Shown: positions 8,795 through 22,814 of the stretch, piece after piece
Position numbering within the stretch: the stretch's first letter is position 1
How the letters are laid out: each line of letters starts with the position of its first letter
Virus record (IMG/VR): IMGVR_UViG_3300011445_000062
Location: 1-24,234 of that record
Strand: one strand, 5' to 3'
Source: a virus
Length of the DNA stretch: 24,234 nucleotides
Notes under the pieces: model-generated
Told to the model about the DNA's origin: nothing
Database searches by the model: none
The model's input: only the letters and a program-made list of their open reading frames with translations
Program-made: the position numbers and the translations under genes

Positions 8795-9430
8795 ATGCAT
8801 GAATATGAACCCCTTTTCCACTTTAAAGAAGAAGAAATTGACGGAATAGCGCCTTGGTGTTGGCAAATATCCGATGATGGAGCTTGGACAGGCCCAAAAG
8901 AAAATTGGCTCAATGGGCATAAAAATAATATCACTAAACATGTTAAAAAGTTTGATTGTGTAGTCCAAGCTGGCGGTAACCATGGTATGTATCCAAGGTT
9001 ATTATCTGATATGTTTAAGATCGTTTATACGTTTGAACCAGACCCTTGGAATTACTTTGCTCTTGTCAATAACTGTCAAAAAGACAACATTATCAAGATG
9101 CAAGCTGCTTTAGGTGATACAAATAAAATGGTAGCTGTGCAGCGAGCATGTATGTCTAATACAGGCATGCATACAGTAATTGATATGGATAACGCGAATA
9201 TTCCCATGCTTACGCTTGATTCATTAGATTTGAAACAATTAGATTTTCTTTGGCTAGATGTTGAAGGCTATGAGGAAAAAATCTTTAGAGGAGCTACTAA
9301 ACTTCTTGAAAAACATCATCCTGTTATTTTTTCCGAAGCTGGTCATAGTGAAATTGATAATTTTCTTTCTCAATTTGGCTATAAAAGAGCCGGCAATTCG
9401 GAAATGGACACAATATACGCTATATCCTAA
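8795..9430 (+). CDS. FkbM-family SAM-dependent methyltransferase
   Basis: 211 residues. SAM-binding motif I is VVQAGGNHGMY (56-66), the acidic ribose-binding position follows in FEPDP (80-84), and the FkbM signature is at 141-167 with LDSL, LDFLWLDVEGYE and FRGA. FkbM enzymes usually methylate a sugar or peptide hydroxyl, so a role in modifying a glycan on the virion or host surface, perhaps with the glycosyltransferase at 2532, is plausible but unproven. ATG 8795 has AAGGA ten bases upstream. It is preceded by a terminator, so it probably has its own promoter or relies on readthrough. Confidence 0.9.
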   Translation: MHEYEPLFHFKEEEIDGIAPWCWQISDDGAWTGPKENWLNGHKNNITKHVKKFDCVVQAGGNHGMYPRLLSDMFKIVYTFEPDPWNYFALVNNCQKDNIIKMQAALGDTNKMVAVQRACMSNTGMHTVIDMDNANIPMLTLDSLDLKQLDFLWLDVEGYEEKIFRGATKLLEKHHPVIFSEAGHSEIDNFLSQFGYKRAGNSEMDTIYAIS

Positions 9431-9458: not shown

Positions 9459-10907
9459 ATGCAAAAAAAGGCAAAAAAAAGGCGACAAAGACAGGTGGCA
9501 AATTATATCAACTTAGAACCTACGATTGACGATACTGATCCAACCAAGGCCCAATCTGGCGCTGCAAGAACTCTTCTAAGACGAATAGCTGAAAGTCCTC
9601 TTCTTTATGAAGTTGCAGGAATGCGTTATGGTGACTTTCCGTTGTTTCATGGCCATGTTAACAATATGCATCAGAGAATGAAAACTGAAGTTGCACACGA
9701 TGGTAATTCTGAAATTCCAACTCCAGAACTTAGAAAGCATATCAGAAGGGCTGAAAGGGAAATGCAGTCCATGGGTTGGAACAATAATATGGTTACACAA
9801 AATGGTGGTCCTCATCTAAATGCAGCTATGCATGCTTATGTCGGTCATTATGCTCCTCTTTTTGCTGCTAAACGCGCATCTCAAATGAGACAAGAAAGTC
9901 TTGAGGAAGCCAAGAATTATACAATCAATTCAAGAACCCCTGCTAGAACTCTTGGGCAGCTGGTCCGTAGAAAAGACAATGTTGGCGCCCAGGCGCGCGC
10001 TGAGCGTGCTAGACGTGCAAAAGCAACTCCTACAGCTGCGCGTGATATCATTCATCGGCATGTAATGGGAGGGAAAAAACGCCCCAAAATACATGAATTT
10101 GAAGCCGCCGCCAATGCTCTATCAAAAAATCCTGGTTCTCTAGCCAGAACCCTTCAAAGAGCGGCTAAAGAGCGAAAGAAATGGGATAATATCAAACAAT
10201 TCCATGCAAAAGTAAGACGCCAAGAGAAACAAGCTGTTGCTAAAAAACATAAGGCCGAGATTGATGCTATTCGCGCTCAAGTTAAAGCTCATACAGCCAA
10301 ACCAAAGAAACCAAAGGCAAAAGGGACTACTAAGGCTGCAAAGACACTTGTTCCAAAAGCAACAAAGATACCAAAAACAAAATTGTCTCCTAAGGAAAAA
10401 CAGTTTATTGCCAGGGCTCTTACTAAAGCTCCAGAGTCAACTACATTTCATCCTGTAGAAGTTAAACCACAGGAAAGGGCTATTCTAAAAGGAGCTAAGA
10501 AACGTTTAGCTGGAGCTAATATCAAATCAACACCTTCTCCAGGAACTTTGATTCCTAAGCAAAGTACAGGAAGAGAGGCACAAAAACGCCCACCTCCTTT
10601 ACCTAAAATAAATGTTCCATCTACACGGGAACCGCTACCAGAGCCAAAAATAATCCAGCAAAAAGCTGAGATTGTTAGGGATGCTTATGGAAAGGAGCAT
10701 GATGGTAGAAAATATTATCTTTCTAGAGGTGGACATATAAACATGTGGGATGATTTACATAAAGATTTTGATCGTGGTATGGTTCCACCTGATGAAGAGT
10801 TACCTCACCATGAACATTATAAAAATGATATTCGTGCTAGGATTCCAAGCAAAATGGAATTGTTTCTTAATAGAAAGAAACGGGAAAATCCAAGAAATCT
10901 ACGATAA
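9459..10907 (+). CDS. large basic protein, putative virion/head-associated
   Basis: 482 residues, very rich in Lys, Arg, Ala and His. The N-terminus MQKKAKKRRQRQ is strongly basic. Residues 35-150 are mixed helices with many His (GHVNNMHQRM, HAYVGHYAPLF). Residues 170-270 form charged helices, 280-312 and 340-400 are Lys/Pro-rich low-complexity linkers, and the C-terminus is again basic. No catalytic motif is visible. The start is ATG 9459 with CAAGGAAAA upstream, downstream of a late-promoter-like octamer, and the stop overlaps the next ATG by one base. DNA-binding packaged protein or scaffold-type role is inference; no family is recognised. Confidence 0.8.
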   Translation: MQKKAKKRRQRQVANYINLEPTIDDTDPTKAQSGAARTLLRRIAESPLLYEVAGMRYGDFPLFHGHVNNMHQRMKTEVAHDGNSEIPTPELRKHIRRAEREMQSMGWNNNMVTQNGGPHLNAAMHAYVGHYAPLFAAKRASQMRQESLEEAKNYTINSRTPARTLGQLVRRKDNVGAQARAERARRAKATPTAARDIIHRHVMGGKKRPKIHEFEAAANALSKNPGSLARTLQRAAKERKKWDNIKQFHAKVRRQEKQAVAKKHKAEIDAIRAQVKAHTAKPKKPKAKGTTKAAKTLVPKATKIPKTKLSPKEKQFIARALTKAPESTTFHPVEVKPQERAILKGAKKRLAGANIKSTPSPGTLIPKQSTGREAQKRPPPLPKINVPSTREPLPEPKIIQQKAEIVRDAYGKEHDGRKYYLSRGGHINMWDDLHKDFDRGMVPPDEELPHHEHYKNDIRARIPSKMELFLNRKKRENPRNLR

Positions 10908-12817
10908 TGTCAGTATCTAAAACAATCACTAAAACAGTCAGAGAAAAGCAGCTAGAGGAATCTAATGCCCTTCTTGGTTTGATTGGCGGTGGTTTGGTGT
11001 TGGGTGCACAAGCCATTTATAATAAATGGAAGAACTCTAAATCTTTTCGTGATCCGCACGGTGATTATGCTTATCATGGGCCATCCAAGACCTATTATGG
11101 TAAGAGTTTCAAACCAGCTAATGAGAAAGCCTTTTTCAAACATCTAACACATGAACGTATGATGGACCCTGTAAAGGCCCAAGATATGATCACTCGTCTC
11201 AAAGCACCTCATGAAAATAACGAGCATATTCAAAAACATATGAAACTGGCTAATTTATACAGAGATGCGGCTGAAAAATCAGTAGCTAAAAAACGTGCTG
11301 TTAAAGATGCCCAAGCGGTTATGGATAGAGAAGAAGGAACAAAAGCTAAGATTTCTATGCATGTTCATACCGCAAGAAAAACACGCAAGGCGGCAAGAGC
11401 GTTGACGCATATGAATGTTAAAAATCCAAAAACAGGCAAGGTATCTTCTAAACAAGTTCGCCGTGATAAAGTTATGAAGAATATGCCAAAAGACGAAGTA
11501 TCAGCAATAATGGCGAAAAGAAAAGAAAAAGCTAAAGCTTATAGAAAGGCAGCAGAGTTTCATATGAAAAAAGCAAGACGATTGAAACAAGGATTAGATA
11601 AAACTTGGGAAGAAGATTTCGCTCCAATGGTAAGAGATATGCTTTTGGAAGGCTTTAGCCAAGATGAAATTATAAGTATATTTGATGACGGTTTAGACCT
11701 AAACGAGGAAGAATTACTAATGGTAAAGACAGAAATAGACAAAGAAGATAAGAAGGACAAAGAAGAGCCTAAAGAGCCTGATACGTCCGTATATCATGTG
11801 CCGTCAGACACAAGAATGACTGATACAACTTCTCTCATGACAGAGGATTATATCTATTCCGTTGTAGATGATTTGGCCAAGGTGTTCATGGAAGAAGAGA
11901 TTGTTTCCATTCTTGCTGGCGACTTTGATGATTATCATTTGCGTCTTCATAAATGGGGTAAATCTGGTAACCTTCGTGTTCAACGCCTCCAAAACGCCAA
12001 GAATGCGATTGCAGAAGGTTATTTGGATGGTTATGCGGAATGGTTAGAAGAGCAACTATTACCAGGAAAAGGCGTTGGTTCTGTCCCTGATCCAAGATTG
12101 AATAAATCAAAGTCACCGATTGCTAAAAATCGGTCACTTGTTCCACAATCACGAGCACTATATTGGTCCACACCAGCATCGCAACCAGCGGCTAAGAAAG
12201 CTGCGGGTCCAGGTCTGTTTCGCGGTGTAAAGAATCAATATAATAGCATAAGAAACAATGTTCGCAGTTTCTTAGGTGGAAGAAAACAACTCCAAAAGAA
12301 ATTGGGTGCTCAAGCTTATAGAAAAGGGCAAGATGCGGAAAGTAATTTACATCAAGCAAAAGCTATTGATTCTACTTTAGCAAGTCATGCACGGAATGTT
12401 CCACAACACGGTGATGCTACTCAAAAAGTTGGTATGGCTGCACTTAATGCTATTAAAGCTGGTGGTAATAAAAAATCTATTGGTAAAAGTGTAGCAGCTG
12501 CACATGCAGATCATGAAACAAATGTAAGGGTACAAACAGGTGTTCATGCTGGTGTTGCGAGTGCTTTATCTCGTGAAAGAGATTCAGCATTCTCAAAAGC
12601 AAAACAAAATGTAGCTGCATCATCTAGATATGGTAAGTTGGCTAGGGATAAAAACGCCCGGTTGCCTTGGAAAAATGCATTTCGTGGAGAAGATATTGAA
12701 AAACAAGCTAATGATGATTTTCTTCATTTACTTGAAAATGGTTTCACCTATGATGAAGCTGTCCAGCTAATTGAGCAGCAATATGAGGATGAATTTATAA
12801 AAAAAAAGCAGAGCTAA
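10907..12817 (+). CDS. large helical putative virion protein, zero-frame product
   Basis: 636 residues in the zero frame. A hydrophobic, glycine-rich segment at 21-38 (ALLGLIGGGLVLGAQAIY) could insert in a membrane. Residues 80-230 are Lys/Ala-rich helices. Three related motifs occur: MLLEGFSQDEIISIF (245-259), VFMEEEIVSIL (326-337) and LLENGFTYDEAVQLIE (608-623), of the form hydrophobic-LL-x2-GF-x2-DE-x2-x-Ile seen in structural proteins of T4-like phages. An acidic stretch lies at 275-292. The frame ends just after a run of nine A, and the -1 frame stays open for 182 codons, so a longer 816-residue form is likely. It follows the 9459 gene with a one-base overlap. Confidence 0.8.
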   Translation: MSVSKTITKTVREKQLEESNALLGLIGGGLVLGAQAIYNKWKNSKSFRDPHGDYAYHGPSKTYYGKSFKPANEKAFFKHLTHERMMDPVKAQDMITRLKAPHENNEHIQKHMKLANLYRDAAEKSVAKKRAVKDAQAVMDREEGTKAKISMHVHTARKTRKAARALTHMNVKNPKTGKVSSKQVRRDKVMKNMPKDEVSAIMAKRKEKAKAYRKAAEFHMKKARRLKQGLDKTWEEDFAPMVRDMLLEGFSQDEIISIFDDGLDLNEEELLMVKTEIDKEDKKDKEEPKEPDTSVYHVPSDTRMTDTTSLMTEDYIYSVVDDLAKVFMEEEIVSILAGDFDDYHLRLHKWGKSGNLRVQRLQNAKNAIAEGYLDGYAEWLEEQLLPGKGVGSVPDPRLNKSKSPIAKNRSLVPQSRALYWSTPASQPAAKKAAGPGLFRGVKNQYNSIRNNVRSFLGGRKQLQKKLGAQAYRKGQDAESNLHQAKAIDSTLASHARNVPQHGDATQKVGMAALNAIKAGGNKKSIGKSVAAAHADHETNVRVQTGVHAGVASALSRERDSAFSKAKQNVAASSRYGKLARDKNARLPWKNAFRGEDIEKQANDDFLHLLENGFTYDEAVQLIEQQYEDEFIKKKQS

Positions 12818-12859
12818 ACGAGGGTGAGTTTGGCCGCCGCGCCTTACACACTTTAGCTC
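12799..12859 (+). other. predicted -1 frameshift site (A9 slippery run with stem)
   Basis: Nine A at 12799-12807 followed by G contain A AAA AAG at 12802-12808, in the zero frame as ATA AAA AAA AAG, the classic bacterial slippery heptamer. A Shine-Dalgarno-like GAGGA is at 12785-12789, about 12 bases upstream. Downstream, GAGCTAAA (12811-12818) pairs perfectly with TTTAGCTC (12852-12859). The zero-frame stop is at 12815-12817. The stem starts only two bases after the heptamer, closer than usual. Confidence 0.65.
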
Positions 12860-13356
12860 ATTGGTTGCGGTTAGATCGTAACGTTGAACCTGAATGGAAT
12901 CATGATGAAATTATCAGTCATCATGAACAAATCATTCGCGGTATGCCTAGAGGAAGCCATAGATTAGCTGGGAGGCTTCGTAGCGCGATTGATAATCCTG
13001 CTGTTCAAGAGCATGGACGTGGCCGCATTCCAGAGCTTCAAAGACGACATTTTCAAGTCGCTGCTGATCATATTTCTCACATAGAAGACCCTCAAACGCG
13101 CGAGCGTGTAGCAGGTAATTGGAAGAGTCTTTTCAATCGCACCAACGGCCGTTTCAATCACAGACGGTTTGATGCTTGGGCGCGAACTGGAGAGTATAAC
13201 CAAGAACAACCCGGATTTGGGGCACGTCATGATGGTTCTTTCCGAAGAGCTTATAGAGACCCCGGTCAAACGAGACCTCCGAGACGGCCAAGACCCAAGA
13301 AACCCAAGAAGATGTGGTGGAAGTTCAGGAAAAATCAGGGTGAGTTTGAGGTTTAA
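12808..13356 (+). CDS. C-terminal extension read by -1 frameshift from the 10907 gene
   Basis: The -1 frame is open from 12793 through the A9 run to TAA at 13354-13356 and reads AELNEGEFGRR immediately after the slip, then a His/Arg-rich sequence and a basic proline-rich end (PRRPRPKKPKK, then NQGEFEV). The only early initiation codon in this frame is TTG 12865, which has no ribosome site, so independent translation is unlikely. Joining gives 634 + 182 = 816 residues. The composition is coding-like and matches the basic neighbours. The alternatives are transcriptional slippage on the A9 run, or a single-base sequencing error splitting one gene. A 12-base repeat AGGGTGAGTTTG occurs at both ends of the extension (12821 and 13337). 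Confidence 0.7.
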   Translation, partial: AELNEGEFGRRALHTLAHWLRLDRNVEPEWNHDEIISHHEQIIRGMPRGSHRLAGRLRSAIDNPAVQEHGRGRIPELQRRHFQVAADHISHIEDPQTRERVAGNWKSLFNRTNGRFNHRRFDAWARTGEYNQEQPGFGARHDGSFRRAYRDPGQTRPPRRPRPKKPKKMWWKFRKNQGEFEV

Positions 13357-17835: not shown

Positions 17836-17911
17836 ACGGGTGTAGCTGAGTGGCACAGCGGTAGCCTCCAAACCTACGTCATCAGGGGTTCGATTCCTCT
17901 CTCCCGTGCCA
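17836..17911 (+). tRNA. tRNA-Trp (CCA)
   Basis: A 76-base cloverleaf with encoded CCA. Acceptor ACGGGTG pairs with CTCCCGT with one T-T mismatch and G73. The D stem is GCTG/CAGC. The anticodon loop CTCCAAA gives anticodon CCA, with GTAGC/CCTAC closing by four pairs and a C-C mismatch. T stem AGGGG/CCTCT with loop TTCGATT. It reads UGG. Confidence 0.9.
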
Positions 17912-17918
17912 TCTTCGC

Positions 17919-17996
17919 GCTGGCTTAGCTCAATGGCTTAGAGTGCCGCACTGTGAATGCGGAGATGGTATGGTTCAATTCCACCAGCCAGTACCA
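17919..17996 (+). tRNA. tRNA-His (GTG), alphaproteobacterial type
   Basis: Acceptor GCTGGCT pairs with AGCCAGT, giving G1:U72, then A73 and encoded CCA. The base before G1 is C, so there is no G-1. D stem GCTC/GAGT. Anticodon stem CCGCA/TGCGG is perfect around loop CTGTGAA, anticodon GTG. T stem TATGG/CCACC has only three good pairs, so the gene is a little degenerate. It starts seven bases after tRNA-Trp and should share its promoter. Absence of G-1 with U72 and A73 is the special histidine identity of alphaproteobacteria. Confidence 0.88.
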
Positions 17997-22742: not shown

Positions 22743-22814
22743 GCGCGTGAACGTCAATGGATGACGATGTGGCTTTCAATCCGACAGAATTAGGTTCGAT
22801 TCCTAACATGCGCG
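22743..22814 (+). tRNA. tRNA-like gene, possibly tRNA-Glu (TTC), degenerate
   Basis: Acceptor GCGCGTG pairs with CATGCGC (one G-U), D stem CGTC/GACG is perfect and T stem TTAGG/CCTAA with loop TTCGATT is perfect. The anticodon arm TGTGG-CTTTCAA-TCCGA has two mismatches; its loop gives TTC (Glu). An alternative with an 8-base loop and a bulged G restores the stem. The 3' end reads GCTA, so CCA would be added after transcription. Identity is uncertain. Confidence 0.6.

Follow-up and report, generated by a model that had tools for sequence, protein, structure and literature searches.

A predicted programmed -1 frameshift at a dnaX-like A9 run extends a basic protein of a T4-related phage

A basic-protein block with a predicted trans-frame extension

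The gene p636 occupies positions 10907 to 12817 on the + strand of the stretch of viral DNA analyzed here (IMG/VR record IMGVR_UViG_3300011445_000062, 24,234 nucleotides, hereafter the window) and encodes, as its normal termination product, a basic, helix-rich protein of 636 amino acids (pI 9.6). Its end is overlapped on the same strand by an open -1 frame of 182 codons (12808-13356; G+C 0.485), the product of which is more basic still (pI 11.2). Together with the neighboring p482 and p300, p636 and the extension form a series of strongly basic products (pI 9.6-11.2) located upstream of p199 and p104, two genes with weak tail-type matches. An FkbM-type methyltransferase gene (8795-9427), kept in the sister lineage described below, adjoins this block, and a sister contig (L006) appears to carry the Ig-like C-terminal part of p199 twice, in tandem, at positions 517-1407.

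The source phage is T4-related. The DNA polymerase shares 44% identity with those of T4-like cyanophages, a sister contig encodes a T4-type gp23 and a gp21-type prohead protease, and single neighboring genes have relatives in Stenotrophomonas phage DLP6, Caulobacter phage Cr30, Rhizobium phage RHph_I1_18 and cyanophages. The window also harbors tRNA-Trp and tRNA-His genes (17836-17996 and 22743-22814), as well as a weak third tRNA that was found by Rfam and missed by ARAGORN.

The basic block itself returned no relative for p482, p636, the extension or p300 among annotated phage records; a match to a mycobacteriophage capsid gene (36 bits, E 0.8) was dismissed as chance. For the extension, no relative was detected in bacterial and archaeal genomes and no family in Pfam and PHROG, where an Ig-like domain was likewise not found; the chance matches of a DNA pattern, GAGGGTGAGTTTGGCCG, were to two unrelated contigs. 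For both the extension and p636, AlphaFold gave models of low confidence (pLDDT 50 and 46, respectively), and the all-helix model of the extension, at that confidence, gave no significant Foldseek match. A sequence search of solved structures found nothing. In DLP6, Cr30 and RHph_I1_18, the region of synteny lying upstream of the respective p199 relatives likewise encodes basic proteins, with no detectable homologues among them. An earlier reading of the DNA, made from the letters and open reading frames (the sequence-only reading), had described p636 as looking like a basic head or virion protein. The basic character was borne out, and the virion role is suggested by composition and neighborhood, with no family, fold or annotated homologue behind it. 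Since neither a homologue nor a fold was found, we infer the label of virion protein from context, in which p636 may plausibly be an internal or minor virion protein. The neighboring p154 begins with MKTFQEFLSE, which resembles the N-terminal sequence that targets T4 internal proteins to the head.

The A9 run and its flanking signal elements

In the zero frame, p636 ends with ATA AAA AAA AAG CAG AGC TAA, so that the stop codon (12815-12817, identical in both lineages compared) lies two codons past a run of nine A and the following G; the open reading frame list and the sequence agree with the sequence-only reading in placing the end of the 636-aa frame right behind this run. The run spans 12799-12807, is identical in both lineages and contains two overlapping heptamers of the X_XXY_YYZ type in the zero frame. 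The first, a dnaX-like A_AAA_AAG, was located at 12802-12808, in the phase previously claimed for it, and is followed by C. This is the most shift-prone heptamer in E. coli, a 3' C increases shifting, and its combination with a Shine-Dalgarno-like sequence 9-14 nt upstream constitutes a strong bacterial -1 signal (PMC5009743). The second, A_AAA_AAA (12799-12805), had not been pointed out before; it is a weaker site than A_AAA_AAG in E. coli (PMC5009743), and is here better spaced with respect to the flanking elements, being 9 nt past an upstream GAGGA and 5 nt short of a downstream stem. The site is not a matter of chance: of the 29 genes of the window, none but p636 presents an in-frame X_XXY_YYZ heptamer within the last 15 codons, and in-frame A_AAA_AAG occurs only twice in ~7,390 codons. 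The p482 gene opens with another in-frame A_AAA_AAG and an A8 run (9464-9480); in the sister lineage this heptamer is not kept, whereas the A8 is.

The region in which a ribosome may change frame is narrow. A TGA in the -1 frame (12790-12792), also absent from the sequence-only reading and kept in both lineages, confines entry into the extension frame to positions 12793-12814, and within these 22 nt the A run is the sole slippery sequence. Upstream of it lies a Shine-Dalgarno-like GAGG (12785-12788), a putative 5' stimulator that is kept in the sister lineage with a variable next base. In the window the element reads GAGGA (12785-12789) and ends 12 nt before A_AAA_AAG, the distance given by the sequence-only reading, and 9 nt before A_AAA_AAA, thus within the 9-14 nt range described for Shine-Dalgarno-like stimulators of -1 frameshifting (PMC5009743). 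The probability of finding a Shine-Dalgarno core by chance in a 9-nt coding stretch is 4.3%.

Downstream of the run, a stem-loop (12811-12859) is predicted that consists of two outer arms and an inner branched hairpin. The arms, GAGCTAAA (12811-12818) and TTTAGCTC (12852-12859), form the perfect 8-bp stem previously proposed, and the stem is kept in both lineages. The spacer between it and A_AAA_AAG is, as had been remarked, only 2 nt, which is short for a dnaX-like stimulator, and amounts to 5 nt when measured from A_AAA_AAA. The 53-nt segment behind the heptamer folds with -18.5 kcal/mol, a stability reached by none of 200 shuffled sequences and by 0.5% of the positions in the window; the corresponding z value is -3.2 in the window and a less extreme -1.8 in the sister lineage, for which an identical fold is predicted. 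Past the main stem there is a second small hairpin (12864-12882, GTTGCGGT/ATCGTAAC), for which the sister lineage has G-C in place of one G-U pair and lacks the terminal pair. A search of Rfam returned no match at the putative frameshift site and hence no intron or recoding RNA of a known family. Where stop codons elsewhere in the window are followed by a long open -1 or +1 frame, this frame is mostly that of the next gene.

A homopolymer of this length is also a potential site of transcriptional slippage, whereby RNA polymerase would add one A (A10) in some mRNAs and normal translation would then enter the extension. Bacterial polymerases slip at nine A, and slippage at runs of A9 length is known in dnaX of Thermus, in Shigella type III secretion system (T3SS) genes and in IS elements (PMC5009743); the run found here is of that length, about nine A or T, in both lineages. 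We consider this a live but rather unlikely explanation of the mechanism. Slippage of the polymerase would require neither the GAGG nor the phase of the heptamer nor the downstream stem; these three features are nevertheless present and kept, and their combination, as read in the sequence, favors a slip of the ribosome over one of the polymerase. The maintenance of these signals is only weakly independent as an argument, the block in which they reside being little diverged between the lineages.

Conservation of both frames and selection on the extension

The sequence-only reading had named an assembly error in the homopolymer as the main alternative, and the direct contact of two open frames at a run of A does invite the suspicion of an assembly or sequencing error, or of a recent mutation breaking a single gene of 816 codons. 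This explanation is rejected by two comparisons and appears scarcely credible. In a near-identical assembly, IMGVR_UViG_3300011441_000055, 7378 nt could be aligned with the window with 1 mismatch and 0 gaps, the A9 run included; this match ends at window position 13284, and a second contig of the same sample begins at 13291. The same A9 is present in a sister lineage, IMGVR_UViG_3300044742_000232 (L005), which has ~75% nucleotide identity to the window and from which the neighboring genes are separated by a dS of ~1. L005 encodes a p636 homologue (647 aa, 72% identical) and, in the same relative -1 frame, an extension that is also of 182 aa. It keeps the GAGG, the -1-frame TGA, the sequence A9-G-C-A-G-A-G, the zero-frame TAA and the stem. 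From the heptamer to position 12859 the two lineages differ by three substitutions. None of them changes an amino acid of the -1 frame, and all fit the stem, being located in loops or replacing one of its C-G pairs by U-G. With a quarter of its bases changed, this lineage keeps the same arrangement, so that a sequencing error is rejected, and the extension is moreover still open and under selection. Both frames and all signal elements are therefore present in, and common to, two lineages, and the alignment to related phages that the sequence-only reading had proposed as a check finds the A run and both frames conserved. The comparison is based on these two lineages; a third lineage with the extension was sought in IMG/VR and none was found.

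The extension frame is open from GCA at 12808 to TAA at 13354-13356, and its product is 89-90% identical in L005. Between the window and L005 this frame shows no stops, a single 3-nt indel and a pN/pS of 0.20, whereas each of the other five frames contains stops and has a pN/pS of 0.30-1.7. When the 54 substitutions of the extension were scattered randomly in 2000 trials, a mean of 37 and a minimum of 27 amino-acid changes were obtained, against the 19 that are seen. The extension hence evolves as a protein in exactly the -1 frame and is under protein-level selection. In agreement with the sequence-only reading, which had noted 182 further open codons with no credible start, the frame contains no ATG or GTG, its first possible start being a TTG at 12865 that lacks a Shine-Dalgarno sequence. 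The combination of frame-specific selection and the lack of a usable start codon makes expression as a trans-frame product the well-supported reading of the extension, as judged from these sequence comparisons. The TTG, which occupies the same place in L005, would be the natural starting point if the extension were a separate downstream gene translated by reinitiation or from an internal start. We hold such an arrangement to be very improbable given the lack of a Shine-Dalgarno sequence at this codon and the conservation of what precedes it, the 19 codons before the TTG being identical at the protein level between lineages and differing by three synonymous changes only.

The conservation of the RNA elements has to be read in light of the low divergence of the region. 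Between the window and L005, dS is 0.33 for the extension as compared to 0.99 for p636, 1.02 for p300 and 1.22 for p482, and nucleotide identity rises from 70-80% to ~93% close to the slippery run, dropping after ~13120 and further after 13300. The resulting low-divergence block covers window positions 12795-13300, with ~93% and then 82-90% identity, between flanking genes with dS of ~1. Because synonymous divergence in the extension is low, the conserved stem and A9 are not independent evidence of function, and they might have been retained just as parts of a block that is young or recombined; the frame-specific selection on the protein stands regardless. To judge from these patterns, the block may have arisen by recombination, by the recent sharing of a module or under RNA-level constraint. 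An overlapping antisense gene was discarded as an explanation for its low dS, as every antisense frame has stops in one or both lineages. The G+C content of the extension (0.485, against 0.39) also sets it apart, and most of it is bracketed by an imperfect 17-nt direct repeat (12816-12832 and 13332-13348; 15 of 17 positions, found in 0.5% of shuffles), the two copies of which share their reading frame (N-E/Q-G-E-F). It is conceivable, if rather doubtful, that the slippery run, stem and extension constitute one exchangeable cassette, swapped between phages, that adds an optional tail to an existing protein.

Proposed expression and relation to known recoding systems

Programmed -1 ribosomal frameshifting is probably the mode of expression of the gene spanning 10907-13356. 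The majority of ribosomes would terminate at the TAA at 12815, releasing the 636-aa protein, and a minority would slip back by one base within the A9-G run. The heptamer A_AAA_AAG (12802-12808) is the most likely place for this slip, with the overlapping A_AAA_AAA (12799-12805) perhaps aiding or replacing it. The event would be stimulated by the GAGG on the 5' side and by the stem-loop on the 3' side, and the shifted ribosomes would complete a form of 816 aa (634 + 182; 92.9 kDa). The predicted junction reads ..FIKKKAELNEGEF.., with ..FIKKKAELNEGEFGR.. and ..DEFIKKKAELNEGEFGR.. as junction-spanning peptides, and is the same whether the slip occurs at either heptamer or an A is added in the mRNA. 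The arrangement suggests a ribosomal slip, with the long form in the minority; both forms would be basic phage-particle proteins, the extended one a minor component. As to the sequence-only reading of a programmed -1 shift yielding an 816-aa minor product of a head or virion gene, the shift gains support from the frames, A9, GAGG, stem and stops conserved in L005, and the head or virion role is suggested by basic composition and gene neighborhood.

The known programmed frameshifts of tailed phages mainly concern tail chaperones and capsid or tail-tube extensions. In the lambda G/GT tail assembly chaperones, a late gene is likewise shifted by -1 shortly before it ends, and a minor fusion results; the protein described here is much larger and more basic and shows no sequence match to them, and none of the neighboring proteins scanned in the window was identified as a tail-tube or tape-measure protein. 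The signal itself resembles the E. coli dnaX cassette, which has the same A_AAA_AAG, an upstream Shine-Dalgarno sequence and a downstream stem-loop (PMC5009743). It differs in that the E. coli shift leads to a short product, while here it would lead to a long one, as in a minority of bacterial dnaX genes, in the 2-nt spacer to the stem and in the gene, which is unrelated. Two forms of a phage protein, the normal one and one lengthened by a shift close to where the first frame ends, are also made in the case of gene 10 of phages T7 and T3 (10A/10B) and of the capsid or tail-tube extensions of Lactobacillus phage A2 and Listeria phages (PMC5009743). Those cases involve major capsid or tail-tube proteins that often gain an Ig-like domain, whereas p636 has no detectable relatives, its basic extension matches no Ig family and the phage is T4-related. 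In IS elements and in Shigella spa13, an A9-type run similarly gives rise to a trans-frame extension, by transcriptional slippage (PMC5009743); at the p636 site an in-phase heptamer, a Shine-Dalgarno-like sequence and a stem are present in addition.

A frameshift-extended minor phage protein with a dnaX-like signal is of a known kind, here in a protein family without relatives. As the extension has no start of its own, routine gene calling misses the 93-kDa product that the frameshift reading predicts as a minor form. If this reading is true, the conserved dnaX-like site, situated in the gene for an uncharacterized basic protein from a T4-related phage, would add a target of a different sort to the proteins known to be extended in this manner.
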